A DNA stretch of 64,000 nt from Ilex aquifolium. Lineage: Eukaryota; Streptophyta; Magnoliopsida; Aquifoliales; Aquifoliaceae. The stretch spans positions 17,261,501 to 17,325,500 of the forward strand of contig OX637401.1 of NCBI GenBank assembly GCA_951799425.1. Reading direction: 5' to 3'. A model generated the notes under the pieces. It was not told where the DNA came from. It was given only the letters and a program-made list of their open reading frames with translations, and made no database searches. The position numbers and the translations under genes are program-made. Shown here piece by piece: positions 8,522 through 48,400 of the stretch (position 1 is its first letter; every line of letters starts with the position of its first letter).

Positions 8522-10981
8522 TCAGTACCTGTAGTGAGGAGGCTTGTAAGGACCCTCAATTGGTATACTGATGTAGTCAGCCTGGTCCTTGGTGAGCTTA
8601 GTGAGCCGGGCACCAAGCTTTCCTAGGTGGAGAGAAGCAACCTTCTCATCAAGGTGCTTAGGCAATACATAAACCTTCTTCTCATACTTCCCACTTGCCC
8701 TCTCGTTCCACAGCTCGAGCTGAGCAATCACTTGGTTAGTGAAAGAGCAGGACATCACGAAGCTAGGATGCCCTGTGGCACAACCCAAGTTCATGAGACG
8801 CCCCTCGGCCAATACAATGATGCCCGATTTAGTATCTGGGAACACCCACCTATCCGTTTGGGGCTTAATGGTGATTCGCTTCACGCCAGGGTATGTCTCA
8901 AGACCATGCATGTCGATTTCATTATCAAAGTGACCGATGTTGCAAACAATGGCGTTGTTCTTCATCTTTCTCATATGGTCTACCATGATGATGTCCTTGT
9001 TACCAGTGGTGGTCACAAAGATATCAGCTTCAGAGACCACATCTTCAAGAGTAAGAACTTGGAGGCCTTCCATAAGAGCTTGAAGAGCACAGATGGGATC
9101 AATCTCAGTCACAATCACACGGGCACCAGCTTGCTTCAAGGCAGCTGCGCAGCCCTTGCCCACATCTCCATAACCAGCTACAACTGCAACCTTTCCAGCA
9201 ATCATCACATCAGTGGCTCTCATCAGGCCATCAGGAAGCGAGTGGCGGCATCCATACAAATTGTCAAACTGGTCGAACCAAAGTCATAGTAAATTGTTAG
9301 AACAGGGAAGATGTACTTTATTAAACCAAAGATCTATAACAAGCCAAACAAGATCTATCAATATTGTCTTTAAATCATTGATCAAAGAAAAAGAAACTGC
9401 ATTTAATGATGGAACCATAGCACGAATCCTTAATAGAGGCCAGTGAACAGGTACTTTACTAAACTAAAATCTATACCAAGCCAACCAAGATCTATGAATT
9501 ATTGTCCTTTAAATCATTGTTACAAATCTAATTCTACAACTACAGACAGATCAAAGAAAAAGAAATTGCATTTACTGATGGAATTAGAACACGATTTGTT
9601 GACAGATAGCCAAAATAAGAAATCCTTAATAGAAGCCATGCCAACATCAACAAACTCATGCTACATCTGAGATGTAGAACAGAAACAAGAAGATTTATAC
9701 AACTCAGAAATATCAGCTAATTTGGCACCAAATATCCAATGCGACAGCCAATTTTTTTACAAAGTAATTGGATGGAAAATTAAGTTACATGAAAGAATTA
9801 AATAAGGTGCCCACTTCAGCACAACCAATCACATATGGATGGCTCCATCTGAACAAAATAACTGAAAAAAATACTATCTGCATTCAATCCTATAAGATCG
9901 AGGAGATAAAGTCACTCAATTATAGCTACTATATAACTAGAAATAAAGGTAAAGGTAACATGCTTGAATTAACAACCAGATTATGGGTTTGAACAGAGGA
10001 GAGCCACTTTGTACATATTATGGAAATTAGATCTATACCCAATTCATCCCAATCAATTAACATGACTAAAGGTTCAATTACGTATAATGAGAAGTTAGAT
10101 CTACACCCAATCCACACCAAGAAATATCAATCAACAGGATTCAATTACGTATAATAAAAGTTAGATCTTTACCCTTTTTAAACATGTCAAATTATATGAA
10201 GCAAAAACAAAATTGTGTGAAAACCCAGATCTAATCCAAGATGGACATATATAAACAACTAGATATATACCTTGCTCTTGGTGACAGAGTCATTGACATT
10301 AATGGCAGGGAACAACAAGGTGCCATTAGCCTGCATCTGGTACAGCCTCTTAACCCCAGTCGTGGTCTCCTCCGAAACTCCAACCAATCTCTCCTTCATC
10401 TTGTGATACCTCTTGGGATCCGTCTTCAAGCCATCCCTAATAATCGTCAAAACAATCTGAAATTCTGCATTATCAGTAGAATTCGGGTCCGGCACCTTTC
10501 CGGTTTTTGCGAATTCTTCCTCGGCTTTCACCCCTTCGTGAATCAACAAAGTGGCATCGCCACCGTCATCCACGATGAGGTCTGGCCCACCACCGGGACC
10601 CCAGTCAAGGGCCCGCTCGGTGCACCACCAGTACTCCTGGAGGGTCTCACCTTTCCAGGCAAAAACCGCCGCGCTGTCACGGGCAATGGCCGCAGCAGCG
10701 TGATCTTGGGTGGAGAAGATGTTGCACGAGCACCACCTGACCTCCGCCCCAAGGGCAGTGAGTGCCTCGATGAGCACCGCCGTCTGGATGGTCATGTGGA
10801 GGGAGCCAGTGATTCTGGCTCCCTTGAATGGCTGTGATGGGCCAAACTCGGTCCGACACGCCATTAGCCCTGGCATTTCGACTTCGGCCAGCTCGATCTC
10901 CAGCCGCCCGAAGTCCGCCTGGGACATGTCTTTCACCTTGTACTCGCGGCCCGAAGTGGTTTTCTCAACTAGCAAAGCCAT
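8522..10981 (-). CDS. SAHH: S-adenosyl-L-homocysteine hydrolase (adenosylhomocysteinase), two exons, complete
   Basis: Exon 1 is 10271-10981 (237 codons), the intron 9269-10270 is 1002 bp with GT-AG ends, and exon 2 is 8522-9268 (248 codons plus TGA). The total is 485 residues, the usual plant length. The enzyme splits S-adenosylhomocysteine into adenosine and homocysteine, relieving product inhibition of methyltransferases in cytosol and nucleus. Visible motifs: SAHH signature 1 ([16 protein letters not shown], residues 85-100); the [15 protein letters not shown] block spanning the splice junction (231-245), with the conserved active-site lysines; the NAD-binding GYGDVG loop (269-274); and the C-terminal KPPHYRY that closes over NAD of the neighbouring subunit. 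The plant-type insert (about 150-190) is present. The start is the only ATG in frame, followed by [18 protein letters not shown] as in plant homologues. No damage is seen. Confidence 0.98.
9302..9640. repeat. Direct duplication in the SAHH intron
   Basis: A segment with AGATCTAT, TTTAAATCATTG, GATCAAAGAAAAAGAAA, GCATTTA and CCTTAATAGA-GCC occurs at about 9302-9437 and again, expanded, at about 9450-9640. Further short repeats of TTAGATCTA-ACCCA and CAATTACGTATAAT lie at 10020-10175. All are intronic. Confidence 0.75.
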
Positions 10982-15011: not shown

Positions 15012-15606
15012 TCTATATAATAAAGTAGCTTACAATTCAAATCTCAAAAGATAAACAAAATGACTTTTGCTATTCGCGGTTGAGATCACTTTAAATTTTA
15101 TTTTAAAGTTAATCTAACGGCTAATATTAACACCCTAAATTTAATAAGAAAAATAGGCCCTTAAGGGTGTATTTGAAGTGACCTTTTAAAATTACTTCTA
15201 GAAATTATTTCTCATAAATACTTTAATAAAAAAAAAATTGTGTTTGAAACCGCCCCACCACTACCTCTACCACCACCACTGCCACTGTCACCGCCGCCAC
15301 CACCACCGTTGCCGCTGCCGCCACCACCACCACTGCAGCCGTCGTCGCCATCGCCGTCGCCGTCGCCACCACCACTACCACCATCGCCACCACCACCACC
15401 ACCAAAACCATCGTCGCAGTCATTGTCACCCACCACAACCATCACCGTCTCCTACCACTACCACCTCTCACCCTCACTACAACCGATGATTAAATTCATT
15501 TTATCTCTCCTGTATGTTTGTGATTTAATTTTGGATATGAATACAAATATGTTTATTGTTTACCATTTTTTATTACTCTGTGCTTTCAGGCACAGGCAAT
15601 AACTAG
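15012..15606 (+). mobile_element. Non-autonomous Helitron H1
   Basis: The 5' end is TCTATATAATAAAGTAG preceded by A. The 3' hairpin CTGTGC-TTTCAG-GCACAG (15578-15595) is followed by GCAATAA and CTAG (15603-15606), then T. The interior holds a family block (TTGAGATC..TTTAAAGTTAATCTAACGGC) and a (CCN)-rich trinucleotide tract at 15248-15480. The Pro/His- or Gly-rich ORFs in that tract are low-complexity. No Rep/helicase. Confidence 0.88.
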
Positions 15607-19395: not shown

Positions 19396-20667
19396 TCTAT
19401 ATAATAAAGTAGAGCGAAGTTTGAATCCAAAAGACAAAGAGGGGTCCAGATCGTTTTGACACAAAACATAAACACATCTAACGGACAACGTAACCCCAAC
19501 ATAAAAGACGGTTCAGATCGTCTCAAAAATTTTGATCCAATGGTCTATGATTAGTCCTAAATTTTTTTTTCCCGCCCAACAAGATTTCCCGACTCACGCC
19601 TCTCTCTCTCTCCAATTTTTAATCTCTATCCTCACCCGACACCTCTCTCTCTCTTCCTCATCTCTCATCTAAGTCTTCCTCCTTATCTCACCCAACAACC
19701 CAGTAACTCTCTCTCTCCCTTATCTCTCATTTAAGTCTCCATCCTTATCTCACCCAGCAACTCTCTCTTTTTCTCTCTTCCTTAACTTCCTCACCCAGCA
19801 CCTCTCTTTCCCTCTTCCTTAACTCTCTATCTGTCTCTCTCAATGCAATATGTCTTCTACCTTTAGCCCCTCGCTTCTCTGCCATGGCTCAACCCACCAC
19901 CGATCAGCAAGCATCCCAGGTACTTCCCCCTCATTCGCTGTCTCTCTCTGTCTTCATCTCTCTCTAATTGCACTTTCTCTGTCTCACCTCTCTTTCACAC
20001 ACACACACACACAAAGGCAGTCGAACACACACACCCATCGCACATCACATACACACACACAAAAAACAAACAAACCAACAGATCACACACACACACACAA
20101 ACAAACAAACTAGCAGATCACACTCACACATACACACACGTTGACATTCACACAGCGAACACACATTTTTCTAATGTTTTCTATTTTTTTTTAAATTAGG
20201 TATTAATTTGGGTGTTTTGTAGGAAATCGAATGCTATATTTTCAAAATTGGGCTGTTACGTTTTGTAAGAAATCGAACGCTAGGTTTTAGTTATTTCAAG
20301 TTTTTATTTCACACACTGAATTTTTTCTCTGGTTATTTTACTTTATCTGTGTTGTTTGGTATTTTACTGAATTTTATCTTGAATTTTATCTTGCATTACT
20401 CAATCCTCGGTGCTACATTCACAACCAAAATCAACTGTTGGAGCGCCTGCATATATCTTGCATTACTCAGTCCTCGATGCAAAGTAAGTTTTTTTTGTGT
20501 ATTATCGGATTGTTTACCATAATGGATCCCATAAGTTTCTGAACTGTACAATTCTTTTGTATTTATTTTCCTTCTTTTTTTCGGTTTTGCACCTCCAATG
20601 AGGTTTCCGGTGAGGCATTGGACTTGGTCCTTCAATTGGGTGGTGGTAAGCATTTGAGGCTGAAATC

Positions 20668-21219
20668 TCTGTATAACTTAGCTTCCTCTTCTTCTTTTTT
20701 TTCTGTAGTATTTTACACTACAGATGTTCATCACTGATTTTTTTTTTTTTTTAATTTGTTTCAGATCTGAAGCAAACTTGATGATCTGTGAAGCTTTTTG
20801 CGATCTGGGTCTTCTTCATTTCTTGCTCTAATTCGAATCTCAGTAAGTTGGAGTTTAATTCCGTGTTATTTAGCTCTATTTGTGGAGGAACCTAATGAAA
20901 TATTTGAGTCTTCATTGTTGTATACTGTGAAATGTTGATTTTGTTGGTTGGTTTTTGTTGGGATCTAGGTAAGATGTGGACAATTTATTTGAATTTGGTA
21001 TTTTGGGTGTAGTAGTGAACTGAGTGTGTGATTTTATCTTTTCTCTGTATAACTTAACTTCCTCTTCTTCTTTTTCTGTAGTATTTTACACTACAGATGT
21101 TCATCACTGAATTTTTTTTTTAATTTGTTTGAGATCTGAAGCAAACTTGATGATCTGTGAAGCTTTTTGCGATCTGGGTCTTCTTCATTTCTTGCTCTGA
21201 TTCGAATCTCAGTAAGTTG
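20668..21219 (+). repeat. Direct duplication inside Helitron H3 (copies at 20668 and 21043)
   Basis: 20668-20850 and 21043-21219 are nearly identical: CTGTATAACTTA, TAGTATTTTACACTACAGATG, AGATCTGAAGCAAACTTGATG, CTTCTTCATTTCTTGCTC, AGTAAGTTG. The period is about 375 bp. Each copy ends in an AGTAAG donor-like site, so these may be duplicated leader exons of a captured gene. Confidence 0.85.
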
Positions 21220-21680
21220 AAGGAATTTTATATTTGACTTTGAAGCTGAAAAGGGTTAGTTGTTTGAGGTGAGAGGGTGGGTTGTGGTCTGGTTTCTGTT
21301 GGTTTTGATGGGTGGGTATGATCTGGGGTTTGGTTGGTCTGCATGTTGATTGGTTTTGATGGGTTTCAAGAAGTTTTGATTCATGTGAGTTGAGATAAAA
21401 CTTTGATAAGCATGGCCTGAAATTGAAGCTTTTGCCATAAACTGGAAGCTAGCATTTTGTATTCTAAGTACTTTTCTTTTGAACATGTCCATTTATGTAT
21501 CTATTTAGTATGTTTACGAATTGGTGATGGTTTTTAAGGTGATGGTTTTTGACTTCTTTCTCTGTCTTTGTAGAACAAGTATACAAATTACCTCTTGAAG
21601 CTAAACACAAAATAAGAATCCAAAAATATGACAAGAATGTTCATTTTTTCTTACTGAATTTGATTTCGAACTCTGTTTAG

Positions 21681-22507
21681 GCATTGACTTACTCACACTT
21701 GCTGCAAATATGCTTGCTCCGAGGAAGTACCAGAACTCCACGATATGGGAGGCCTAGCTGAAAGTTTGCATTTTGCAATAATTGTGATTGGGTATTTACA
21801 TCTTTAAGATAGATATCTGAAAGATGCTCATGAACCTTTTTGATTATTGAATGTGCATAGGAGGATTCAGTGTTTCCTTTCGTTGATACAAATTTTACTG
21901 TGGGCACCATCTTTGGGGTGTGGCCGGGAGATGCTAACTGGAATAACATTAAGAGACCAAGCCGCGGCAGCAATGGGAATTTATGGACTGTGAGCAACAT
22001 ATGTTCTTGCTCTCAAGGATATCCCTGGTACCCATGAGTTTCTCCTTCTAGATGAAGGTACTCACACAATATTGCTAGATTTAACAGCCACAAAATGGGC
22101 TATTCTTTTTGCTCTATTTTCAGTCTCGAAGCAGGGCAGGATTCTGTCATATTCGGGGAAGGATTCTATCATATTCAGAAGTGAATATTGATGTTTCTCT
22201 TTCTTATTAAATGTTCCTTTTGTTATTAGGTGGCTCCTTTGGGGTTCCTGATGAAACTCATAAGAGATTTCCGTTCTTGAAAATCTGCACTTTTCAAAAT
22301 CTAGAAAACAAATGGGATTCTAGGATTCGAGAGAAAGCCAGAGGCTACAGTAGTGATGGGAAACAGTCTGTGCTAGACAAGATGATCAATAATCTGGATG
22401 ATAGGACTCAAGTTGCTTATGGATCCAAGAACAAGAATATTTGATTTGAAGCAACACTATATGGCTTCAGGCTCAAGGTCTCTGTGCCAGTTGAAGCTGC
22501 TGCTTAA
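21681..22507 (+). pseudogene. Captured fragment of chloroplast sedoheptulose-1,7-bisphosphatase
   Basis: The intact enzyme removes the 1-phosphate from sedoheptulose bisphosphate in the Calvin cycle. Three exon-like blocks remain. 21681-21763 reads as ALTYSH then, after a one-base shift, KYACSEEVPELHDMGG. 21861-22057 gives GGFSVSF, VDTNFTVGTIFGVWPGD, then after further shifts DQAAAAMGIYG and YVLALKDIPGTHEFLLLDEG, ending at a GT donor. 22230-22507 gives VAPLGFL, then after an insertion [13 protein letters not shown] and [15 protein letters not shown], then LYGFRLK and a stop. Introns with AG/GT borders persist, so it was captured as genomic DNA, not cDNA. The metal-binding DPLDGSS segment between GGFSVSF and VDTNF and a whole exon before 22230 are missing. 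With frameshifts and an in-frame TGA at 22442, it cannot make enzyme. Confidence 0.88.
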
Positions 22508-23460
22508 GATCTGTAGCTTTGTATTCATGTATTTTCCCTCTTTCTAGAACGAAATCAATGTGCTTTGTACACATGGTTGTATGATATTATTCATTTAGAT
22601 TACGGGGACAGTTAGGCTACATTTACAAGGTTGCATTCAACTTAGTGTCGGTCCAAGTTTAATATTTGATTATTTCGTTTTCACGATTAATATTCAGTGT
22701 TTGTTTATTTCTAGCGTGTCTATGTTAAGTGTTTGATTGTTTCGTTTTCAAGAACAATATAAATTTTTTTTTTTTGAATTGCAACATTGCAGGCACGGAT
22801 TATGGGGACTTTCAGTTTAGTACATGTCCGAGTTCATTGCTTGATTATTTCGTGCCCAAATTTAGTACTCAATTTTTTTGAATTGTACCGTGCCTTCAGG
22901 CACGGGTTATCCCTAGTATATATTAAAGTAGAGCTGAGTTTGAATTTTGGAGACAAAAAGAGGTCCAGATCGTTTTGAGACAAAACATAAACACATCCAA
23001 CGGACAATGTAATCCCAACATAAAAGATGTTTCAGATCATCTCATAAATATTGATCAAACGGTCTGCAGTGAGTAATGAATTTTGTTTTCCGGCCCAACA
23101 ACGTTTCCTTTTTTAATTAGAGTTTTATTCTTTGTACAACTCTAAAACTCTCATCTCTCATATAACTCTCTCTCTTTATCTCATATTCACTCTCTCTCTC
23201 TCTCATACTCCTATCTCTAAGATGTTTTAAAATTTAAATATAAGAATATACTATTTTATCTTTTATATAACTCTCATTCTTTCTCTATATCATACGTCTA
23301 TGTCTCTTTTATGGAGACTCTCTCTCTTCATCCCCATTCAAGCCCTAATTAAATACACTCAATTTGAATCTTTTTTCACTTTAAAATTTAATTCAATTTT
23401 AATTTATTTGAGAAAGTACAAGGGGGGCTCAGATTAAATCCACTTTTAATTCAAAGGCCC

Positions 23461-24150
23461 ACATTTCATCTCACTTCTTCCATTTCAATCCAATGGCTTG
23501 CAATGCATCTCAACCAAAAAAAAAAATTCCCGCCCATTAAAGCTACACCCACACGGCACCCCCAAGCAACCCAATTCAAACACTCTCCTTTTCTCTCTCT
23601 CAATCTCTCACCTCTCGCTCCTCTGCGGAAGAAAACCCGTCTCAAGCTTCTCTTTCTCTCTCTCAGAGAGAACCATACTGCCCTTCTCAGAAATTCAGAT
23701 CGCAAGCGGCACGACACCGCCACAGCACAACCAGAGCCCTCTTCCAAGGTAATACTCCTTGCCTCTCTCTCTCTCTCTCTCTCTCTCTAGTAGCATAGAC
23801 ACCGGAACCACAATCCCTCCTCTCCCCATCCACCCTGTTTCCCCCTATATTTCGTCAGTTATCCCCCTAACACATAGAACACATACAATTTCGCCCTAAC
23901 CCCCTAATCTATCTCTCTCACGTGGTCTCCTCCTACCCCTCTCTGATGCCTATACTCTCTGACTATGTCTCCCTTTTTCATGCCCTAATTCTCACACAAA
24001 CCCACCATCTCTCCCTCATCTCTCTTTGATTTGTTGCCCGCCCCTCTCACTATCACCGCTTCAGTTGCATTATAGCCACCCTTTCTCTTCCTTCCTCCCT
24101 CTCTCTCTCACACTCCACAGCCCACCGACTACCACACTTCAACCCCTTTG
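23461..24150 (+). other. CT-rich leader-like cargo in H4, gene not identified
   Basis: Pyrimidine-rich sequence with TCTCTCTC runs (23764-23789, 24103-24112) and a CCAAG|GTAATA donor-like junction near 23748. It resembles a captured plant 5' UTR, but the ORFs through it (83-95 codons) match no family I recognise. Confidence 0.35.
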
Positions 24151-25029
24151 CTGTCACACTTTCGGTATTATCAATTCTGAAACTTCTGCATAGGATTGTT
24201 TAGTGAGATATCAATAATTATCAATTTTTTTGAACAATTGTAAAGTGAGATATTATTGATGGTCCTGGTAATAATATTTTTTGAATTTTATATTTTTGTT
24301 GTGTGTTTTGAAGCTGGGATTATGTAAAAAAAATTTGGTACTAATCAATGCTCAATTATTGCTTTGATTCAAAGCATAATACTAATGTGATTCTAGAATG
24401 GAATAGAATGTGTTTGTGTGTGTTTTTTTGCGGCATGGGGGAGGATAGGCTGCCCCCATGGTAAAGTAGTAGAAACGTAGGAAAAAAATTGGTTACTAAC
24501 AAGAAAAGACTAATGGCATGAGATTATAAATTGGGTTAATGTAATTTTAGTTGGGAAAGGAAAGGTTAAGGCCCCAAGTGTTTGCTCTAATGTCCGAGAT
24601 AAATTTGAGCCAGCATTTGACGGAATTATGATTAGGCTTTTCTTTAAGTGGTGTCGCATCGCTAGATTGAACAGTTGTAAAGTGAGATATTATTATCAGA
24701 ATGGTTTTTAGTTTATAATATTTATTTTCTATTGATTGAATGGCTTAGAATTATAGTGGAGAACTAGCTAATTTCTACCGGCATATGCAAGGAAAGGAGA
24801 CACTTTCATTATGACCCTTAAAGCTATGTCATTAATTTTGACGATGGCACTAATAGAGAAGTAGCCAGTTCACCATGACTAGATTTCCAGCTTCACAACA
24901 TATGAACCACATTTTATTTACTATTTTCATTGAAGTGTTTTATATTTGAATTTTCTCTTACTTTCTTTATAAATTCTCTGTTATTATCCCTCTCATATCT
25001 ACTCTCTTACGCATTTTCCCTCTTACCAA

Positions 25030-25261
25030 ACCAAATAAAGCCAAACCAAGCCTTATGTCCTCATCATTTGGGGTCGGCCACATGAGTCCGTTTTCGCCAT
25101 TCATTTCGATCATGCGCTATACGCTCATTTAAGTTAAGTATTTTTATATCTTTTCTTATTATTTCATTCAATGTTAATTTAGATCTACCCCTATTTTTAG
25201 TACCATTAAGAAAAATTCTATCATTTTTTCGTATTTTTCCTCTTAGCTGGCATAAATTCAA
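25030..25261 (-). mobile_element. 3' end of an RTE-type LINE, inserted in H4
   Basis: The minus strand encodes NRGRSKLTLNEIIRKDIKIL, then RIAHDRNEWRKRTHVADPK and a stop. This is the conserved C-terminus of plant RTE-clade LINE polymerases (RGRP..W-VV..D, ..RAEWR-RIHVADP). Past the stop comes the usual AAGGCTTGGTTTGGCTTTAT-like 3' tail. Only about 60 codons remain; the 5' end is lost, as usual for LINE copies. Confidence 0.78.
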
Positions 25262-25363
25262 ATTTTGTCAGCTTGCTCATGAAACCTTAATGCGGCTTGC
25301 AAATTTCCTATAGGTTGCAAGTTTATGTGGTGGAAAAAAGTATTAGACACATTTCTTTTGAAT

Positions 25364-25447
25364 TTGATTGAAATGTTGACGACACAACTAATTAAATTTG
25401 ATGGAATCGTTGCTGATGGAGATGAGAAATTGCATACTAGAATTCAG
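25364..25447 (+). pseudogene. BAG-domain-like exon fragment captured in H4
   Basis: The plus strand reads LIEMLTTQLIKFDGIVADGD then EKLHTRIQ. This resembles the last helices of the BAG domain in plant BAG1-4 Hsp70 co-chaperones, where an LL-LD-IVADGD-KL-R--QV pattern is conserved. A CTATAG-like acceptor lies about 50 bases upstream. The match is about 28 residues long, after which the frame runs into unrelated sequence (FLKFFMMNCF), so this is at most a fragment. The call is from memory of the family pattern. Confidence 0.5.
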
Positions 25448-26301
25448 GCTATAGATTTGTTCTTGAAATTTTTCATGATGAATTGTTTCCTTTTTCCATT
25501 CTTTTCTGTACTTTTCATACGTTAAATGTTGATTCTTAGTCTGTGTCGTGGCTATTTATGATCAAACAATATTTTTTAATGATATCGTTTGGCTTATGAA
25601 AAGACTATTGGCTCAAGTAGAGCTTAAATCCATTTGAATGTTCTCTATCCTACCCATGCATTTGTTACACTTTGATTATATCTTATTCTTTGTTTAGCTC
25701 AATTGTGTGAGATAGATCATGCTTATGTTTGAATTTTGATTAGAGTTGAAAAAATTGCTTGGTAAATTGTAAACTCGGTGATGCTAGCTGATGGTGGTTT
25801 TGAAAAATAGTATGTGATGGTCTTTGGTTTAAATTTAGAAATGTTTATGGATTGACGACTCTGCATAACTCCGTTTGTATGTTAAATATAATGGTTTGGC
25901 AATAATTTACTTCGTAAAATTTTTTAAACTGGTATGGTGATTATGCCAATGATGATTGAATGTGTGAACTGGGATGCTAATGAGTAAATGTTTTTGGACT
26001 TTTAGTGGCAAGTGGATTGGGTATTGTGTAGTGTAGCATTTTTTTTATGAGAACAAGGCTTTTATTCAAATTACATATAAGTCTCCCTTTGGGTAGCACA
26101 AACAAAAGGAACTACCCTTGGGGTAGAATAATTGGCATGGAATTTCAATCAGAACTATCTACATTGTTCATTGTGATTGTTTTTCAATTGTCTTTGTGTA
26201 CTACTAAAGTTTGAGTTCAAAACTCTCGGCTTTTGGCTACTTGATTTTGTATACCTATCTTTTAATGTCTTTTTTTGATTGGGTTCAATTTGGATACAAA
26301 G

Positions 26302-26380
26302 TAACATTCATCAAATCAAGATACTAAAAAATCAAATTGAAATTTCTATAACACAAAATATCTTGATTTGATGAATGTTA
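26302..26380. repeat. Perfect 22-bp inverted repeat (foldback) in H4
   Basis: TAACATTCATCAAATCAAGA plus TA at 26302-26323 is repeated exactly in reverse complement at 26359-26380, with a 35-base loop. It could fold into a strong hairpin or be the remains of a small MITE. Confidence 0.9.
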
Positions 26381-26518
26381 ATTAGTATGAAATAGGTTTT
26401 TATAGGGTTTTGATTAATTATAGAGATTGTATGTCAATTAGTATGAAATAGAGGCTTATTTGTGTGTTAATTGATAATACTTTCATAATTTCAAAGATTT
26501 TATAACACACCGTTGAAC

Positions 26519-26557
26519 CCCCCCCCCCCCCCCCCCAACACACACACACACACACAC
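26519..26557. repeat. C homopolymer followed by (CA)n
   Basis: About 18 C then AACACACACACACACACACA. Its length may be unreliable in the assembly. Confidence 0.9.
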
Positions 26558-26954
26558 GTTGGGATTTTCAAATAGGTTAGGTTTTTTTAATGTTATATTA
26601 TTAAGAATTGGATTTTTAAATTGGGATTGTAAAGTTATTATTCAATGTTATAGTTGTTAGTCGTATTTTGATTAAATGCATGTTAATTGTATGAAATTTT
26701 ATAATGGGCAGGATTTGAAATTGAAAATTGTGTTTACGGTTGAATGTTATAGTTATAAACATGGTTATTGGTAGTTTTTTCATTTTTTTCAAATATTTTC
26801 AGGTATACATAGAAGGATGCTCGGTGTAAGCTATAAAGAAGATGAAGTTGTTTACCTATTTGTGCATGTGTATATTTTTTGTGTTTCGTCTTTTGTACAA
26901 TTAACTAATTATACATGGTTATGATGATTTTGGGTATGGAATGATGGTTGCTTT

Positions 26955-27410
26955 GATTGTTATGTATGATTGTAAGTTTTGTAGACAGATTTAGATTTTT
27001 CTGGGCTTCTATTTTTTTAGGAAACTCTATTGAAATTTTTTGAAATTAGTAGGGACTAGCTTGATATTTTGATGGTTGGATATGTGTTATTGATTGGGTA
27101 TGTATTGATTATTGTTGTGGTATGGTGAATTATGATGATTGTTATGTATGATTGTAAGTTCTGTAGACATATTTAGATTTTTTTTGGCTCCTATTTTAAG
27201 AGAAAATTACGCTGAAATTTTTGGAAAATTGAAGGGACTAGCTTGATGTTTTGTTGGTTGGATATGTATTGATGATTGTGGTGGTATGGTGTATTATGAT
27301 GATTGTTATGTATCATTGTAAGTTCTGTATATATGTTTAGATTTTTCTGGGTTTCTATTTTCAAAAGAAATTTTGCTGAAATTTCTGGATAATAGTATGA
27401 ACTACCTTGA
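26955..27410. repeat. Three-copy tandem repeat near the H4 3' end
   Basis: Units starting at ATTGTTATGTAT (26955, 27138, 27302) share GATTGTAAGTT-TGTA, TTTAGATTTTT-TGG and GAAATTTTTGG blocks. Periods are about 183 and 164 bp. Confidence 0.85.
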
Positions 27411-27523
27411 TTTCAAATTGACAGGTTGTTTTAGGTTGCAAAGAGTCTTTAGGTAATGTAGTATTTTTTGAGTTTTTTTTAATTTTTCGTTACACCGTAC
27501 CTTCAGGCACGGGTAATTACTAG

Positions 27524-32757: not shown

Positions 32758-35714
32758 ATGGATCCCGTCAACGATTGGGGCAACACCCCTCTCGCCACCG
32801 TCGACCCAGAAATCCACGACCTAATCGAAAAAGAAAAACGCCGCCAATGCAGAGGAATCGAGCTAATCGCCTCTGAAAATTTCACCTCCTTCGCCGTCAT
32901 CGAAGCCCTCGGCAGTGCTTTAACCAACAAGTACTCCGAAGGCATGCCCGGAAATCGATACTACGGAGGCAACGAATTCATCGACCAGATCGAAAATCTC
33001 TGCCAATCTCGAGCTCTCAAGGCCTTCCACCTTGACCCCACCAAATGGGGTGTCAATGTACAGCCTTATTCGGGTAGTCCAGCTAATTTCGCTGCTTATA
33101 CTGCTGTGCTCAACCCACATGATAGGATCATGGGTCTGGATCTGCCTTCTGGTGGACATTTGACACATGGGTATTATACTTCTGGTGGGAAGAAGATCTC
33201 TGCGACTAGTATCTACTTTGAATCTTTGCCTTATAAGGTAAGAATTTATTCGAATAACTGTTAATTCATGATGGATCTAGGAGCGGAACTTCATCCAATG
33301 TAGTTAAATGCCTTCTTAAATCCAAATTATGGATCCATCCATGAATTTAGTAATTTTGGTTAATAGGAAAAAGTATACAATTGAAGATGGGATAGGTTGG
33401 TTTGTTAATTTTTGGGTTGTTCTTATTTTGATATTCAGTGTTTAATGTTCTTGGCTTGTTTTGTTCATATTAGGTGGATTCGAAGACTGGGTATATTGAC
33501 TATGATAAGTTGGAGGAGAAGGCAATGGATTTCAGGCCAAAATTGATTATTTGTGGAGGGAGTGCGTACCCGAGGGATTGGGATTACAAAAGATTCAAAG
33601 CAGTTGCTGACAAATGTGGGGCTCTTTTGCTTTGTGACATGGCTCATATTAGTGGCCTTGTTGCTGCTCAGGTATTATTCCTGTCGATTTTTTTGCTATA
33701 ATTTTCTTATTATTTCTGTTTTTTTTAGCTTTACTCTGGTTTAAATTTGTTCTTGGTTTCTAATAATGGATCTGTGGAGATTTGGGTTCTGATTGGTTAA
33801 ATTAGGTTGAATTTTGGGAGTTGGGATTTGGGGTTTTATTTTGTTTTTGTTTAGTGATGTTGGGCATGGTGGTCGATTATCATACGGTTTGGAGATCTGC
33901 ATTTGGGAATTTGAAATGTTGGTTCAATACTGACGGGGTATCATTTTCTTTTATGTTCTTAGTCTTGGTTATTAGATCTGTGTACAAAGATCCATGAATT
34001 ATGTTTTTAAATTTCATGTACCAGGAAAAATGTTTTTGCTGTAGATTTTTCTGAATTGGGTCCAATACGACGTATGAAATTTGGGTGTTGGTTGTGTAAA
34101 TCTGTGCTTTTTCATTGTTTTAGTGATGTAAGTGTTGTGTGTTTCAATAGGCTACAGATCTTCATTCCTGTCTTAAATTTTCAATTAAGAATTCCATTTA
34201 TGGGATGATTCAAGTCGTTTTGGCATTGGGATTCTGATCCACAAAGAATTTAAATATGCAGCATTTCTATTTTATGATTATGTCGTAGATCTGAAGACTA
34301 TTTAAGTAAATTGGTTGCTTGTCGGTGATGATTTGTTTTTAATGACATGTGGTCACGATGGTATCATGAACTGTCTCTGTTTAATAGATGTATGGAAATT
34401 AATTTGGTTGGAAAAGGCTGCCGACTAAATGGCTGGATCTAGAGATTGGGAAATGTAAGACGTGGGGCAGAGCTTAGGTTTATTCAAATGCCTGGGATTG
34501 GGGTTTTTAGTATAATTTATTTTATTACATTGGAATATCATCACATTTTCTATTAAATATACTCAACTTCAGAAATGTGTGTGAGAACTAAATTATCATT
34601 TTTTGGTGTCTGTGCAAATGACAATTTAAATTAATGATAAGTAGTACCTACTATCTACATATTATCGTTATCGACTTCTTTCTTAAAAACAAATGGGTTG
34701 TACTTTTATGTTCTTGATTATTGACTCTAACTTGTTGCTTAGGTGATTAATTCTAATAATTTCCCTTTTTTTGTGGGTGTAGGAAGCTGCAGATCCTTTT
34801 GAGTACTGTGACTTGGTCACAACCACAACCCACAAGAGCCTGAGGGGACCTAGGGCTGGTATGATCTTCTACAGGAAGGGCCCTAAACCAGTCAAGAAGG
34901 GTCAGCCAGAAGGTGCAGTTTACGACTTCGAGGACAAGGTCAACTTTGCCGTTTTCCCCTCTCTCCAGGGTGGTCCTCACAATCACCAGATTGGTGCTTT
35001 GGCCGTTGCTCTGAAACAGGCCATGTTGCCCGGATTCAAGACCTATGCTAAGCAAGTCAAGGCCAATGCAGTTGCCCTTGGAAACTACCTGATGAGCAAA
35101 GACTACAAGCTCGTCACTGGTGGGACTGAGAACCACCTTGTTCTGTGGGATCTTCGTCCTCTTGGATTGACTGGTAAAAAAGAGTTGTTTAGTTTAATGG
35201 GAATCGATTGTGATATACATTGAAAGTTGAAACATAGCAATATGTCTTAATAATCTTTTGCTACTGTTGCAGGCAATAAGGTTGAGAAGCTTTGTGACCT
35301 ATGCAACATTACTGTGAACAAGAACGCTGTTTTTGGTGATAGCAGTGCCTTGGCTCCTGGAGGGGTTCGGATTGGTAATAACTATTGCATCAAATACCTA
35401 ACCTTTTAGAAATAATTGTAAATAGAAGTTTTGGTGTTAAATCATACCTTTCATTCTTTCTGTTGGCAGGTGCTCCGGCCATGACTTCAAGAGGTTTGGT
35501 TGAGAAGGACTTTGAGCAGATTGCAGAGTTCCTCCACAGGGCGGTGACCGTCACCTTGAAAATTCAGAAAGAGCACGGAAAGCTCTTGAAGGACTTCAAC
35601 AAGGGTCTGGTGAACAACAAGGACATTGAGGAACTGAAGGCTGATGTTGAGAAGTTTTCATCCTCATTCGACATGCCTGGCTTCTTGATGTCCGAAATGA
35701 AGTACAAGGATTAG
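32758..35714 (+). CDS. SHMT: Serine hydroxymethyltransferase, cytosolic type, five exons, complete
   Basis: Exons: 32758-33237, 33474-33671, 34783-35173, 35273-35374, 35470-35714 (TAG). All introns are GT-AG and phases agree, giving 471 residues, the size of plant cytosolic SHMT. The PLP enzyme moves the serine hydroxymethyl carbon to tetrahydrofolate, making glycine and 5,10-methylene-THF. Motifs: the N-terminal [10 protein letters not shown] (about 40-49), [15 protein letters not shown] (about 58-72), [11 protein letters not shown] (about 102-112), and the PLP lysine in [10 protein letters not shown] (K244), encoded in exon 3. The C-terminal GAPAMTSRG is encoded in exon 5. No transit peptide precedes MDPVNDWG, so a cytosolic place is inferred; mitochondrial and plastid paralogues carry N-terminal extensions. 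No lesion is seen. Confidence 0.98.
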
Positions 35715-39465: not shown

Positions 39466-42400
39466 TCAATCAAATATCTCCTGGGCTTCAATTATACTAT
39501 GCTGGCTGAAAAAAAAAAGAAATAAGAGAGAGAACTAGAGAAGTTAGGTTTTATCGTACATAGTACGAGTATGTTTAAAATACATTAGTAAGAGAAGACA
39601 AGCGGGAAGGGACAATTTATCAGAACAAGTAGACAAGACGATATAATTAGGCTTACTGGTCATCTTTTGCAACCCGATAGTATTTTTCTGCATGCTGACG
39701 TTGACCAATTAGTTGAGCAAACCGCTCATCATGTGTGATTACTATCAGTTGAAAATTCTCCTGGCCTTTTCTGTCTTCCATAATTCTGGTGAAGTTGGGG
39801 AAGTGAGAAGAGGTAAATGAAAGTCTATAGTTCATCACGGACTCTCAAGTGAATATATGAATGGGCCATACCTCAGAAGAGCCGCAGCAAGACTCTCGGC
39901 ATTTGGGGCATCTAAGTTGGTGGTTGGCTCATCAAGAGCTAGTATTCCACAGTTTAGGCAGAAAGTTTCAGCTAATGCAAGACGTATGATAAGTGAAGCA
40001 AGGACCTGAAACCAGCTAAACAATCTTTAAAAGGGAAGAAGAATAATTGAAAGGGGGGCACAAATGTGAGACTGAACCGAAATCCCAACTTTAAAACATC
40101 AATCTATGCGAGAAAAAAAAGGTTATAAGATACAATATTTGCTTAATATTTGCAATGATCACCAACCTTTTGGCCAGCACTGCATCTTCCCCGCATTTCC
40201 AGCTCCGCATCACCAGTTTGCATTAAAACCTGTAGATTACAAAAGAAACAACACAAATTATTATGTTATGAAAATTGTAAAGAGCAGAAAGGGTTAAAAA
40301 TGAATTTGTTGTCACCTTATAACTGTAAGATCGAGTACCAGCACCTTCAGAATCTGAATGAATGCTTATGTAATCTATATCCTGTCCCCTGTATGTCTGC
40401 TGCCATAATTCTCTTATAATCTTATTTATTTCTTCCATTTTCATTGAGTGGAAGCGCATGAGTGCTCTAAATAAGACAGATCAAAGGGTATCAAGGCTCA
40501 TATTGGAACAAGCACTCAAGCAACTGAAGTAAAATGTTAACACAAAATCCGTGAATAAATACAAAAGAAAGAAGATGAGTGTTTTCCATGAAATATGACA
40601 AGTGGAAGCATCAACAAGATCTCATGGTTTGTGCAACCATAGGCGAATCCAATACTTTAATAGGTCTCAAAAGACTCAAATTCCTTCATGCCAGGTGCTC
40701 ACAGTAAAGCATTTATATTACAACTTTACATATTAAGAAACTACTGAAAATACTAATTGTTTTGTTAGGCACATAAAATACTGTATACAAATATACATAT
40801 ATATTCTTAAATAATTCAAAATTAAGCAAATAAATGAACAATATATGAAGAATGTATCCCCCTAAATGAATTAGGTAAAAAAAATGCAATACTAAAAGAA
40901 ATGAAATGTCAAACTTGTTGAAAAGCTCACTTGTCAAGTGCATTGTAATATCTGTCTAGGTCCTTGTTTGCCATCTCAGTTGTCTGTCACAAAAGTATTA
41001 GGTTAATCATATGATTAGAAACTTCAAACTGAGTAAATAGTTAAGCAGCTACTTCTGTTTCACCTTGAGCTGGATTAGCTGATCAAAATATCGTTTGTCA
41101 ATGTCTTTGTACTGTGCCTGTTTAAGATCAATCTTATTTTTTGTAATATTGCTCTGATATACAGACATTGTCCCATGGTACCTGTTTAACTGCCAAAAAG
41201 AAAAAGAAAATCACCTTTCCATTTCTCATAATAAGATAGATCAATGGACCAGAAATTTGACACCAAAAAAAAAAAAAGGATTAACTAAGTTGAATGTTAT
41301 AAGTACGAAAGCCACCAAAACAGAGAAATATTTAAGTACAACAATTGGACAATTTTAAAAGATACAAATGGAATCATCAATTGGAAACTATTTAAGACAT
41401 AATATTCTAGGAAGAAACAAAATTTTCAGGAAGATGCTAAATATCATTCATTGTGCACCATTTCCTCTAGCTCCTGAAAGAGACATTATATGGACTGGAT
41501 TAAAAGGGTCAGTCATCCTAAAATTAGGATTCATTTCTTGTCGTAAATATTCACTTGTAGCATACCATATCTCAATGGATTGACGTAATTTTTCTACCGC
41601 TTGTACATTCCCATAATGATGGTGTTTTTCCAAAATTAAACTTTGTTGTTCAGCATCTTGAACTAGCCATCCCTTAGAAGGTATTGTTAAAAGATCATCA
41701 ATTCCTAATGAAATGGATGTAGCAGTAACTTGCTGAAAACGGTTTTCAGAGTTTGTACTTGATCCAGGATATGTGATGTATATGCCATTCCGAACTATTA
41801 ATCTACTAATAGTCAATATTTTCACAAACATTACACTAATTCCACAGGTGGAGATGAGCTTTGAAAAGGAAACCATAAGAAGATTAAACATAAACCAAAA
41901 TTCCTAAAAACACAAAAGATGATTTTTTCTCACCTGATGAAGGGGTAACCGGTTAAATAGACAAAAAAAATATTTTCATCAAAAGAATAATTTAAAGGTT
42001 CATAATGGAACTATTTATAGAGCAAGGAACGCAAGCTCTACAGCCAGGAACCATGAATACTTCCCTAATTTGACAGGAACAGTGTTTGACCTGTTGGACG
42101 TTGGACAGGGTCATGCCTTAGACTATCTAATAACCAGTCAAAATATGGAGAAACAAAATTATGTAATGATGTTATAGATCAAAACAAGCAGATAAGGGGA
42201 ATCACTACACTCACGAGAGAAATTTGCAGCCATAAATGCAAACGCGATATAGTGGTGTCTCATATTTACAACACACGGGCATGAACAAGGATAAGGAAGA
42301 AACAGGACGCATACAAGGTGACATGGAAAATTATAAAATATAGGACATGAACACGGTTAGGACACGCTACAAATAAACGTCAAATTTGAAGTGGCCCCAC

Positions 42401-45400
42401 TAAAAATGCATATAATTAAGCAAGTATCATGCCTAGTACTCTAACATAGCCTTATAGTAGACAATTATCACCCATCTCTTGTAGATAAAATGTAGCAAGT
42501 ATACATAATAATAATGACTCCTTCCATCTTCTTAATCACCCCTCTTTAGTAAAATCGTGGTGCACCTATTTCTTTTCTCACTAAATTTAAGTAAAACTAT
42601 AATAAGATTAGTCTTCATTGTTATATACTTATTCATGTTATAGGATAATCATAGAACAAATTTCCATGGTTTGTTAATTGTATGTTAGAAAGTGTCCAAG
42701 AAGTGTTGACCACGTCATGAGCTGAGAAGTGTTGGACATATCGGCAAAGTGTGTCAGACATGTGCCCAAAGTTATAGTTTTTTATTTTTTGGGTTATGGA
42801 CAGGGCATAAAGAGGGTCATAGGCCGCTTTTGTGTTTTTTTTTTTTTTTTTTGGGGGGGGAGGAGCTGAAAAATGTCCTATACAGACACAACATGACAAT
42901 CTGTCTGAATTGACCTTCAATGTGTTTGAATCAAGGTGAAATTCAATTGCTTTAACCTTCTAGATTGATTAAAACACAAATATATGGCATTGTGTGTAAA
43001 TCTAAATCTAGACTTGGAACTCCTTGCCTTTTTTTAGCCACAAGCTTCATCAAAATTAGGGAAGAAAGTAGATACACACTGATGATAGAGTGATCGTGGG
43101 TGAAATAAGAAGAAAAAAATAGACATCATCCAAAATTATTAGTCCAAACAATTCTAGAACCAACAATGGACTGCCAATATGCACAAAAGAAGTACTGTGT
43201 GTATGCCCACAAAAAGGCAGAGACATAGACGGACATGGCATCAAAGCAAAAGGTCCTATGTTCTCGCTGCGAACCTGATAATTATCATACTTGCACGTGC
43301 TTGGCCAAATATCTAGCCGTACATGAGGGGATGTATTAAAGAATATATATGTTTACACCCTCTCTAATAGCTTAGGCTTTTAGACGAGATGATCGCTTAA
43401 CAACATGAATTGCAGCTGCCCCTCACCAATAAAGTTAACACCATGTTGACTAACTGCTTAACTTGTGATTTGAAGGAAGAAAAAAAATCTATCTGGGATG
43501 TCATTGTTAAGATGACAAACTAAAGAATTCTTAACACACTATCAAAACTTCAAGCAACCTAAGAGGTCCATAATTATCGTTCGTACCTCTGAAAGAAGTC
43601 TCTCTCTTTCTTGCGCGATCTTTACGAGATCAGCTTCAAAGGTGGAAACCCCACCAATCTTCAGTATTCTGTCTTCCAGCAATTCGATCTCATGGGTAAG
43701 CTCATCTACTTCAGCCTTTGTTTTCCTGAAATTCAAGTTGTCCTCAATGTTGCGTCTTACTTGATCTTGGTTCCGCATCATATCTTTACTTTTGTTCAGT
43801 TCAGCCAAAATTTCCTGCTTCCTAATATCACAAATTTGAAGCTGAGATTCTGATAGAGTTTGCTTTTCTTGCAGTTCTTTTAACCTCTCTCCTTTTTTCA
43901 AATCATAATACCTGGTAAGAGAGAACTAATTGTCAAGATCAATAAGATATGAACATCTATAACACTCTTAAGGTCCACATAACATACTCTTTAACTTTAG
44001 AAGTTACTTTAAGGAGCGCCTCAACTTCCTGTTGGTAGTTTCTTTTTAGTTCAACCTGCTCCTCGTAATCGCGATTAAGTTTGACTTTCAAATCATCATG
44101 ATCACTTAGCAATTTCTCTTTCTCCTTTGATAAAGGTCCAAGAGCCTCGGCCAAATGCTGAAATTATTCAGAAGCATTCTCCTTTGATAACTTACTTTCA
44201 CCATAACCAGCACAAAAAAGAACAGTACAGATAAGGAGGTTGAACAGGTCCTAAATAGAGGCTGGACAAAAAAAAAGAGCTATACATCAAAACTTTCTTA
44301 ATAACCCAACAGCATTGAGAACACAAAAATATTATTTTCCCTGAGATTTCTAACACAACAATTATAAACATACAAATTTAAGAAGATCAGAGAATATTGT
44401 TTTTACAAAATTAGAAATACAGTGTCTACAAGTCACTCGTATCGTTTATTGTGGAGACACTCAATTCACAAACTGGCAAGAGCAGCCAGCGGGTATATTT
44501 AGCAATGATTCAAATATCATAACATCTATCAGACATATTAAATTATCCATCAATGTCATGCCAATATTCTTAATGTTATTAGTTCATGATATTTACGACA
44601 TGCTTAACAGTGAAAGTATCTATTCAATGTCAGTGGACAATTCACAACACTCTTTTACACAACAAAATATTCATGAAATTGAACATAAAATATCAAATTT
44701 CACAATATATTTTTTTAAATAGGAGTACCGATATATTCAGACTTGTCAAAGTGGAATCTGTATCTTACCAAGACATTCGATGGCCCTGGCCCAATAAATA
44801 TATAGGCATGTCCGTGATACTCGCAAATGAAAGTAACACGTCGTTTTTTAGTTATGAACTATTAGTTGTTTTCTAGCATTAAGAATTTACAGTAGTTGAC
44901 TATATAATAATTAAAACACTATGAAAAGCAACTTGAAACCATTGCCAATAAATTAAAAGCTACACTACGTCACTAATAGGAATTTCTTAATAAATCCATT
45001 TAATATTAGTAATTAGAATAAAGAATGACATATACATATAGAAACACCTAACATAAATAAAATAAAAAAAAACTTGAAAAATTTGTTATTCCTGAACAAA
45101 AATGTCTAGTGGAACATCTAGTTTGCCACATTTTTTTCTTCTTTTTAAGAGGAACAAAATATAAGAGGCCCAATACCAACATCCTTGTAAAACCTTCAAA
45201 CAAGTTTCTTAAAATATATCTGTTTCCAAGAGGGCATCTGCATATCCTTCCAAAGAGCCCAGAAAATATCATGTGGCACTTCATTCCACCAACTGCATTC
45301 CACTTGTTACAGGCATTAGTCCACAAACCAAAAGTGAAGCAGATGTTTATGGCAACACCCACCCAACTCCAAAGATTTAAAGAATGGAACTCAATGTCCT

Positions 45401-48400
45401 CTTCTTGGAAACCAGAAATAACATTGAAAGCAGGAGTTAGACATCAATTATATGTCTCTGAGGAAGTTGAGTTCCATTCTTTAAATCTTTATTTTATCTG
45501 TCTATAAATTCTATTTATAAACAGCTAATATACGAATATTATACTCGCATATCGATAGATGATTAGGAAAAGATATGCTATATTATACATAAGCAAAAGT
45601 TTGGAATTCAGACACACAGACAATGGCATGTATATAAACACATACTTGGTTCAGTGCTCAATTAGATTATGAGACATGGTTATTCGATGACATAATAGAT
45701 TGCTGTTGTTTAAATTCTTGTCAGCCTGTATTTTACACACCACACGTTTGTCATCTGCACACTTTGTGTACGACTTCTGGGTTTTAACTTAAGAGTTATT
45801 CATCTCAATTAATATTTCTGTAAGTTCAATTGAACCTTTGCATTTTTGCTCCTTATCTTTACCCCTCTCCAAAACCCATCAAAATAACAATCCAATAAAG
45901 CTCATGTTTTCATGAACTCATATGGTGTTTGTTATGGACATTCTTCTTTCTGGCATTTTCTTAACAACTCAAGCTCAAATAATAATAAGGGCTCCAGGAT
46001 TGAAGAACCTCAACTTAAAATAAGGCTGACATTGAACACACATCATTTTTAGATAAAAGTTTACATCACCTCCTCGTACTGCTATACAAATACAACGTAA
46101 CAAGAGACACATCCTGTCTCACAAAGTTTTTTTGTTAATTATTAACTACTTCGGTGCTTTTTTTATAGAGACCAAACATCTTTACCTCTTCTAACCTGCC
46201 TCAACTTCTTAGTTCGGTTATGTACTGTTTAAATCTTTTTCATATTGGGCTACCATATAAGACTTGACCATATTTTTCCCGGAATTACTGCCAACTTACT
46301 GCGATTTGCAAAAATCCAGTGGATAATTCAGCAGGTATGGTCATTGCATGAGGATAATCAACAGGTGGAATTAGCTGTTAAAACTGAAAATAATGATAAA
46401 AAAAAAGGTACCAAAATAAGAAACATTAGGTATCAAGAATGAAAGGATGCGAGGAACTAAAAGTTTCCAAATTCGAAAATAAATCCCAACTCCAATTTCT
46501 GCCAAAATATATAACATTCGCAAATCAAAGTTGTTAAAGGCTGCTGCACCATTTTAGTTCTAGTATAGAACACCTGTAGGCTGTAAGGAGCCAACAGAGT
46601 AAGAGTGCACAAATGATAAGAATGAACCTAACCATTACCCTCTGATAACTGAAAGGTCATTATCTAGTTTGGTCCTCATTAATTCAGGGTGGCAAGAAGG
46701 GTGGATTGGGTACATAATTAACCTTTGGCAATATTACCATCTCCAGCCTTCAGTGTCATTTTCACTGGTAGCCTAATCCTGAGTTTACTCGATGTCTTGA
46801 AGGATAAATCAGACCCCCCCCCCCCCTCCCCCTCCCAAAAAAAAGTACAACATAAACTATTGCAACAAGTTCAATCTTCTGTAATTTGAACCTAATGAGG
46901 TTGTTGAACAGCCAGCCAAACATATATACAAGGTTCATCCTTCATGGCAAACTATTGCATAGGTGTACTCTGTTGTCATTTTGTTGTCGGACAATGTGAG
47001 ATGTCCCCTTGCAAAAAACATATTAAAAAAAAAACTGTCCATTACAACTAATCTGATCCTGTAGTTGCAGCAAGAAATCCTTCAGCCCAATGTGACTTTG
47101 ATTGACCAGCACAGCAAAAAGGCCGGTCTTCCATAGAGTCATGAGTCAGATCTGATGCGACAAAAGTATACAGTGGCCTATAGAAATGCTTGTAGAAACA
47201 GCATAGTGTCATGTGCAAATTTGTATATACTTAAGTATTACACTTGATGCTATAGATACAAATATTTTGGCTAGGAACCGTAGGGTGCATAGTAATCAAT
47301 CAGAAGACTGTACACAAGGCGAAATACAGGGAATCCACTACTAGTCATTATATTACTCGTGCAGTTGACTGTAACGTATAAAATTTGCATGGACATTGTC
47401 AGGTCACTACAAACTACAAAGTCTAACAGAAAATTTTCCTCAGAACCAGTTACCTTCTCATCAAGCTCAAGCTGACTTTTTTCCTCTGCCAATCGATCTA
47501 ACTCCTCCTCTGCTTTCTTAACATCACGCAATGTATTAGCTGCTTTCACCTTTTCCTCTCTTAGAGTATGCCACCTTATCTGAATATTTGACAGATCATT
47601 TTCCATGTACCTCTGTTCATCTCTTAATTTTTCTAGATCATTATGCAAACTATCCCTGGTTGCCAGTAGAAAAAATGAGAAAACAAGACAGAAGAACCAT
47701 ACAAGAAAAAAAATTACCAGATGCTGCAGAATAAACTCCGAAAGGTAAACAAGTAATTGCAGATTCATATACTTACAAACTTAAATATTTCAAATCATAA
47801 AGAGTTTGCAAAATGATCGACCACAATCATCTCTAATAATACGAGCAATAGAGAAACAAAAATATACTTCAAAATAACCAGCAGATGGTGAATAAAACAT
47901 ACTTTGTGCTCTGCAAAGCATTTAGCTCCAACTGAATTTCATCCATTGATTTGACACCTTGTCCTCGAAAATCAAGCTTATACTCCAAATCATCAACTTG
48001 CTTTTGCAGAGCTTGTATTTCTTGGAAGAGCCTGTCCACAGTTTCTACAGGTTGTACCAAGGCCTCAACTGAGTCCTTATCAGCCTTTATTTGAGCTAAA
48101 ACACCCAACACCTGCAAGAAACATTATTTTTTTAATAGTTCATATTTAAGAAGAACCACACAAAATAAAAGTTTAAATGGAACACCGTAAGCAAATGTTA
48201 GCAAGTGCATAAAATCCCAACCCAATACATCATGTTCTTTACTAGGCATGAAACATATGAGAAGTAATGAAAAGAAAGAAAGTAAAGAAGATAGGAGAGA
48301 GAAGAAAATTATTTTGCAAATTGCTTGATGAGCTCTGATATTAACTTCATTTTTAAAAGACCAGAAGATCAAAACATAAAAAATAATCCCATATTCAAAT

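Follow-up and report, generated by a model that had tools for sequence, protein, structure and literature searches.

Which gene gave rise to the sedoheptulose-1,7-bisphosphatase (SBPase) sequence that lies inside a Helitron of Ilex aquifolium, and was that gene still working when it was picked up? Capture of gene fragments by plant Helitrons is well known. The element at issue, H3, occupies 19396..22916 (plus strand, 3,521 bp) of a window of 64,000 nucleotides, the whole stretch of DNA analysed here (17261501-17325500 of contig C11); searches of the plant's own genome covered 800 Mb in 103 contigs. H3 is very probably a non-autonomous Helitron whose roughly 1.8 kb of captured genomic DNA, from intron 3 into the 3' flank, came from a second paralog of SBPase that was by then a pseudogene. 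An earlier note on this DNA had described a broken copy of a Calvin-cycle gene in a Helitron; the SBPase segment in the element was confirmed, but the working gene was not its source, the second paralog being a pseudogene before capture.

Alignment with an intact SBPase gene on C18 and with a pseudogene on C1 placed the captured block at 21532..22637 (plus strand, as are all its parts). The remnant of exon 4 (21681..21763), with a +1 frameshift common to C1, is followed by intron 4 (21764..21860, GT...AG) and by the remnant of exon 5 (21861..22057), which carries a TGA assigned to the time before capture and two later losses, a 23-bp deletion of the DPLDGSS codons and a 2-bp deletion. Intron 5 (22058..22229, GT...AG) comes next and stops on the right at the scar of a 670-bp deletion; AGG stands at either end of this deletion, which took exons 6 and 7 together with the beginning of exon 8. 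The remaining exon 8 (22230..22507, from PDB match and alignment) includes the stop codon (22505-22507) and a pre-capture 77-bp insert (22253..22329) that also occurs elsewhere in the genome. The limits given in the earlier note, 21681..22507, were exact: in alignment with the C18 gene, exon 4 opens at 21681 and the stop codon closes at 22507. The three SBPase residue blocks it quoted are all present in the sequence; the block YVLALKDIPG... was placed via the same alignment. Its statement that the DPLDGSS segment was gone holds, but the loss of a single exon was an underestimate. In this alignment, an intact DPLDGSS metal site and an open frame are absent from the H3 fragment, the site being deleted and the frame broken by frameshifts and stops.

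The identity of the fragment was examined with two stop-free pieces. Chloroplast SBPase 5iz3 was the best PDB match of both 21861-21989 (E 4.6e-7) and 22325-22441 (E 1.3e-11), values that rule out a chance match and bear out the proposed SBPase identity; for the latter piece, fructose-bisphosphatases (FBPases) gave only E 1.2-1.4, and the captured piece is thus nearer to SBPase than to FBPase. In Pfam, 22325-22441 matched FBPase_C above the cut-off (6.8e-7), and 21861-21989 gave a weak FBPase match below it (0.0037). Introns 4 and 5 persist at the positions they have in the C18 gene, as expected of captured genomic DNA, and a processed, mRNA-derived copy is therefore ruled out. As for the 77-bp insert, six of the seven other loci compared match 79-81 window bases (22250-22330) and the seventh matches 54. 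Copies at several loci share sequence past the insert edges, which gives it the look of filler taken from some longer repeat; a small transposon is disfavoured by the common longer flanks of several copies.

H3 starts at 19396 with TCTATATAATAAAG (given also as TCTATATAATAAAGTAGAGC), its TC end preceded by A. End reading and comparison with relatives delimited its 3' region (22638..22916, plus strand), in which the hairpin CCGTGCC-TTCA-GGCACGG (22888-22905) is followed by GTTATCCCTAG up to the last base, 22916, so that a short hairpin of Helitron type stands about 10 bases before the CTAG end. When the genome was searched with 861 bases of the SBPase block, all 29 candidates were scored and gave 33 matches: four covered the full 861 bases (C11, C10, C3 and C6a, the last at C6:6.7M), four were pieces of two-piece matches at C1 and C6b (C6:42.07M) with about 660 bp extra between the pieces, 12 were more distant SBPase-like pieces (C18, C7, C2, C13, C3, C6), and 13 consisted of the exon-8 insert only. 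Besides the window copy, H3 thus occurs on C10 (L009 2974-6504), on C3 (L010, reverse strand) and at C6a (L011 3353-6506), each copy having both ends and an unrelated site, with flanks differing among all four. Their lengths are 3521 (C11), 3531, 3541 and 3154 bp, and whole-element pairwise identity is 97.2-99.4%. TC and CTAG (CTRR) ends, with A before TC and T after CTAG, were found in 4/4 full copies, as insertion at A^T would leave them. The fragment's sense orientation between a TC start and a hairpin-CTAG end, described in the earlier note for the window, accordingly recurs at three other sites, and the search for relatives also recovered elements without SBPase on C9, C19 and C16. The genome contains at least 150 scored matches to Helitron_like_N (from 204 candidates), 7 of these 150 with a stop-free open frame of more than 1,000 codons, so a source of RepHel exists, and H3 would be moved by RepHel supplied from another place in the genome.

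The intact SBPase gene lies at C18:22065951-22068673 and has a 1179 bp CDS in 8 exons encoding 392 residues. All seven introns are GT-AG and their positions match those in the H3 fragment; on this count the capture reading of the earlier note holds, as it does for the termini, which the other H3 copies possess at both ends. The protein matched PDB 5iz3 at E 6.4e-178, whereas NCBIfam, a prokaryotic library, returned solely fructose-bisphosphatase models, each under its cut-off, so that the name SBPase follows from the PDB match. Over the common block, identity of H3 is about 75% with the C18 gene and 96% with the C1 locus. The latter (C1:55177.1-55179.7k), a pseudogene, represents a second paralog of SBPase, and its homology to C18 starts at exon 2 and runs on into the 3' flank; this homology exceeds the captured block on both sides, by exons 2-3 upstream and by 3' flank downstream, and C1 retains exons 6-7 and, in the form DPIDGSS, the DPLDGSS codons. 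Within 9.9 kb covering the locus no exon 1 was found, and lesions confined to C1 include insertions of one base each in exons 4 and 5 and the loss of one base in exon 8. The donor would be C1 or a locus closely resembling it; given the missing exon 1 and its own lesions, C1 may be the donor's sister rather than the donor. A short Helitron of a different type (L012 2704-3537) lies directly upstream of the C1 pseudogene, approximately at the position of intron 1.

The lesions could be ordered by their distribution among the copies. The exon-5 TGA that replaces an arginine codon and the exon-8 insert of 77 bp are present in C1, C6b, C11, C10, C3 and C6a, and the +1 in exon 4 in C1, C11, C10 and C3, this region being missing in C6b and affected by a deletion of its own in C6a. 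A 147-bp insert in exon 6 is common to C1 and C6b, in a region lost from H3. As they are common to C1 and the Helitron side, the TGA, the 77-bp insert and the +1 predate capture, and since all three are already in C1, the SBPase copy was most likely dead when the Helitron picked it up. The four H3 copies and C6b have both a 3-bp deletion in exon 8 and the loss of DPLDGSS, which measures 23 bp in the former and, as aligned, 24 bp in C6b; the absence of both from C1 indicates that they arose after capture. The 670-bp deletion is limited to the four H3 copies, as are the 2-bp deletion in exon 5 and an exon-8 codon changed from CGA to TGA. The tree, C18 | (C1,(C6b,(C6a,(C3,(C10,C11))))), agrees with this order; ultrafast bootstrap/SH-aLRT support was 95/90 and 100/99 for the two deep forks and 84/86 and 92/92 for the other two. 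One site conflicts with the tree, the base beside the DPLDGSS deletion, which is G in C6a and C1 and T in C11, C10, C3 and C6b.

Divergence at the three codon positions suggested how long the second gene had worked. Between C18 and C1, exons are identical at 86.5% of 758 sites and introns at 68.5% of 623, and identity at codon positions 1, 2 and 3 is 91.3, 95.6 and 72.7%. Had C1 drifted since the duplication, change on its own branch would have sufficed for positions 1 and 2 to diverge by about half the intron value (about 16%); the 9 and 4% observed lie below this, so that selection must have acted on the C1-type gene over the greater part of the period, and the pattern shows long purifying selection. 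Between C1 and the window copy, exons (97.3%) and introns (96.9%) are similarly conserved and codon positions 1, 2 and 3 show 96.9, 98.1 and 96.9% identity, a lack of codon-position bias that indicates drift since the split. Read from these sequences, the second SBPase gene worked for a long time, died and was captured dead, and the H3 block is its multiplied remnant. The CpG observed/expected ratio, 0.48 for the block in C18, falls to 0.33 in C1 and likewise in H3, and the low values would fit methylated, decaying DNA.

Two other histories of the fragment were weighed against capture of a dead paralog. Capture of the working SBPase gene itself, with decay afterwards, would account for the match of the C18 introns, but it is almost inconceivable in view of the lower identity of H3 to C18 than to C1, the grouping of C1 with the Helitron copies in the tree and, barring gene conversion of C1 by a Helitron copy, the exon insert, premature stop and frameshift common to H3 and C1; by these common lesions, we rejected the C18 gene as the captured one. 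The conversion just mentioned, or derivation of C1 from a Helitron copy, would place the common lesions after capture. Helitron copies do outnumber C1, and another Helitron sits directly upstream of it, yet we consider this history very improbable, for homology between C1 and C18 runs past the captured block at both sides, C1 has kept exons 6-7 and the DPIDGSS codons, and it falls outside all Helitron copies in the tree.

Capture of the already dead paralog would then have proceeded as follows. The SBPase gene would have been duplicated, with long selection on both copies; the C1-type copy would have died and been captured dead by a Helitron; and the DPLDGSS deletion would have preceded the splitting off of the C6b copy, the 670-bp deletion and the spread to C6:6.7M, C3, C10 and C11, in that order. 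The SBPase sequence is the piece of H3 that adjoins the 3' end, and it may have been acquired there during rolling-circle replication, either by bypass of the end signal or by template switching. C6b (L013) bears on this question. It has the SBPase block and a Helitron 3' end, and no Helitron 5' end was recognisable in the stretch examined. At its 3' junction, C6b keeps 13 bp more of C1 flank, after which the last 34 bp appear a second time, whereas H3 has them once. Template switching, with one of the repeats lost later, would give such a picture, and the junction, with its 34-bp direct repeat and the additional 13 bp, may alternatively stem from an independent joining event. For Helraiser, bypass of the end signal has been shown (PMC4778049), and capture at the 3' side of H3 would fit that finding.

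The rest of H3 was traced by searching the genome with 19820-21540, for which 40 of 350 candidates were scored and gave 51 matches, so that the counts are lower bounds. Among the scored candidates, only C11, C10 and C3 covered the whole stretch; C6a did so in two pieces and the others in part. The 5' terminal region (19396..19612, plus strand) is shared with H4, the next Helitron in the window, and with Helitrons on C7, C9 and C10 at 80-92% over 165-222 aligned bases, namely 83% over 192 bp with H4, 80% between the first 217 bp of H3 and a 2,906-bp Helitron on C7 (length from L016), and 85% over 165 bp with a second Helitron on C10; these elements otherwise differ from H3. A subterminal Helitron block (19820..20288, plus strand) recurs at many genome sites, with at least 24 matches of 71-94% when the H3 copies are excluded. 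It is followed by an interior block at 20314..20658 (plus strand; 20314-20511 and 20532-20658), which is common to the Helitron on C9 (L053 2657-5823). The latter element, of which both ends were seen, has no SBPase and resembles H3 by 91.7% over 216 bp at the start and 84% over the last 108 bp.

Closer to the SBPase block, 20666..21041 (plus strand) holds a captured putative 5'-UTR exon and the start of an intron, in sense orientation, from a DnaJ/DUF3444 gene. The nearest source is on C4 (41926250, 96.3%), where the H3 piece matches upstream of a 739-residue DnaJ/DUF3444 frame, and a likely splice donor reads CTCA|GTAAGTTG, UTR and donor both being predicted from the sequence. Sequence comparison revealed a second, partial copy of the putative exon at 21031..21222 (plus strand). 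The adjoining block, 21217..21520 (plus strand), is common to elements on C19 (304 bp at 98.4%) and C16 (21217-21468 at 88%), which diverge from H3 directly past GTTTACGAA, end in an H3-type 3' end (84-85% over about 108 bp) and have no SBPase; 3' ends were seen in both, and 5' ends were not found within the stretches examined. With its DnaJ and SBPase pieces and the blocks shared with other elements, H3 is a patchwork of at least two host genes and other Helitrons.

The C7 relative also provided an empty site. Three further SBPase-like loci, C7a, C7b and C7c, lie on C7 (L015, L016 and L017, at 12.87M, 13.02M and 13.15M); pieces of C7a and C7b are about 66-85% identical to the C18 gene, and C7c is nearly identical to C7b. 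The C7 Helitron occupies intron 1 of C7b and C7c, and C7a, with almost the same DNA around the site, is empty there, reading GAAAAAGGTA^TATACTTATA (GGTA^TATA). Insertion without target duplication is thereby seen for this relative, 80% alike over 217 bp, and not for H3 itself.

Could the fragment do anything in the plant? It is most likely a passenger of no benefit. The alternative, a maintained chimeric gene in which the DnaJ 5'-UTR exon is transcribed and spliced to the SBPase exons, or a source of small RNAs that act on SBPase, appears very unlikely. The order of the parts speaks for a chimeric gene, with a putative sense 5'-UTR exon and its likely donor upstream of SBPase exons with acceptors, which makes a chimeric transcript from H3 possible, and genes captured by maize Helitrons are described as transcribed and alternatively spliced (PMC4528327). 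Against it stand the frameshifts, stops and deletions of the SBPase part and the even spread of substitutions over codon positions since the split from C1. It is extremely unlikely that H3 is transcribed from the DnaJ 5'-UTR region and spliced into the SBPase exons, and that chimeric RNA from at least four sites touches expression of the one SBPase gene left after the second was lost. As to small RNAs, captured pieces in maize have been called siRNA reservoirs (PMC13317346), but only 3 of the 1159 coding 21-mers of the working gene have an exact counterpart in the block, exact identity extends over 23 bases at the longest, and with at most 2 mismatches allowed 91 of 1086 block 21-mers match the CDS. 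The scarcity of exact 21-mers argues against small-RNA control of the working gene, which would be possible at few places at most, and weakens the earlier note's suggestion of small RNAs against the parent gene.

Among the reports considered, the closest known case is that of the GIGANTEA Helitrons of Lolium perenne (PMC2702305), with an A^T site, TC/CTAG ends, a hairpin and an intron-bearing fragment of a key gene in several copies. Within L. perenne, the exons of the fragments are 94-98% alike, and against the working gene exons are 83-86% and introns 72-73% identical. H3 shares with them the ends, the target, the hairpin, the multiple copies, the diverged intron-bearing fragment and the pieces of other genes on its 5' side; it differs in the gene, SBPase, and its genome also displays the donor-type pseudogene, pre-capture lesions, post-capture deletions and fragment-free relatives. 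Gene-capturing Helitrons of maize (PMC4528327) are, like H3, non-autonomous and join pieces of several genes with their introns, and transcripts were shown there, whereas H3 is known here from its DNA. Helraiser/Helibat (PMC4778049, PMC5876387) resembles H3 in its TC/CTAG ends, the hairpin near the 3' end, the A^T target and the capture of 3'-adjoining DNA, but it is an animal element, and for H3 the direction and mechanism of capture are deduced. Among titles and abstract openings, the literature search returned no report of a Helitron carrying a captured SBPase, and one exact phrase on a Helitron-captured pseudogene returned no publication. H3 thus belongs to an ordinary, known kind, and its history is unusually complete: it is a clean capture that can be ordered since the working gene, a donor-type pseudogene, an intermediate, four final copies and fragment-free relatives are present in one genome. 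As a Helitron may pick up a dead gene, a captured fragment alone says nothing about the use of that gene; what H3 keeps is the trace of a lost second SBPase gene.

H3 has close neighbours. H4 (22917..27523, plus strand, 4.6 kb) stands head-to-tail behind it with its own TC lost or changed, its first bases being TATATATTAAAG, and may have lost its mobility. Maize and bats both provide known examples of head-to-tail Helitrons, and in maize, as in the window, the CTAG of one is followed by the start of the next (PMC2267711); unlike the maize case, three such junctions lie within one 64-kb window, at 15606/15611, 22916/22917 and 38105/38104 (minus strand). Further junctions occur in L009 on C10 (2726/2731, 6504/6509, 9483/9484). 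Between CTAG and the next element there are 0 or 4 bases (TATA), and the next element begins with TC in three of the six junctions and with TA or TT in the other three. Most of them would follow from one insertion after another into short TA runs; 38105/38104 (minus) is an exact CTAG-TC join, as a rolling-circle concatemer would give. Elsewhere in the window, frames read by eye resemble S-adenosylhomocysteine hydrolase (8522-10981, minus), serine hydroxymethyltransferase (32758-35223, plus) and an SMC-type protein (41448-47768, minus), and pieces of a Copia-type retrotransposon polyprotein were likewise read by eye at 151-528 and 62525-62881 (minus).
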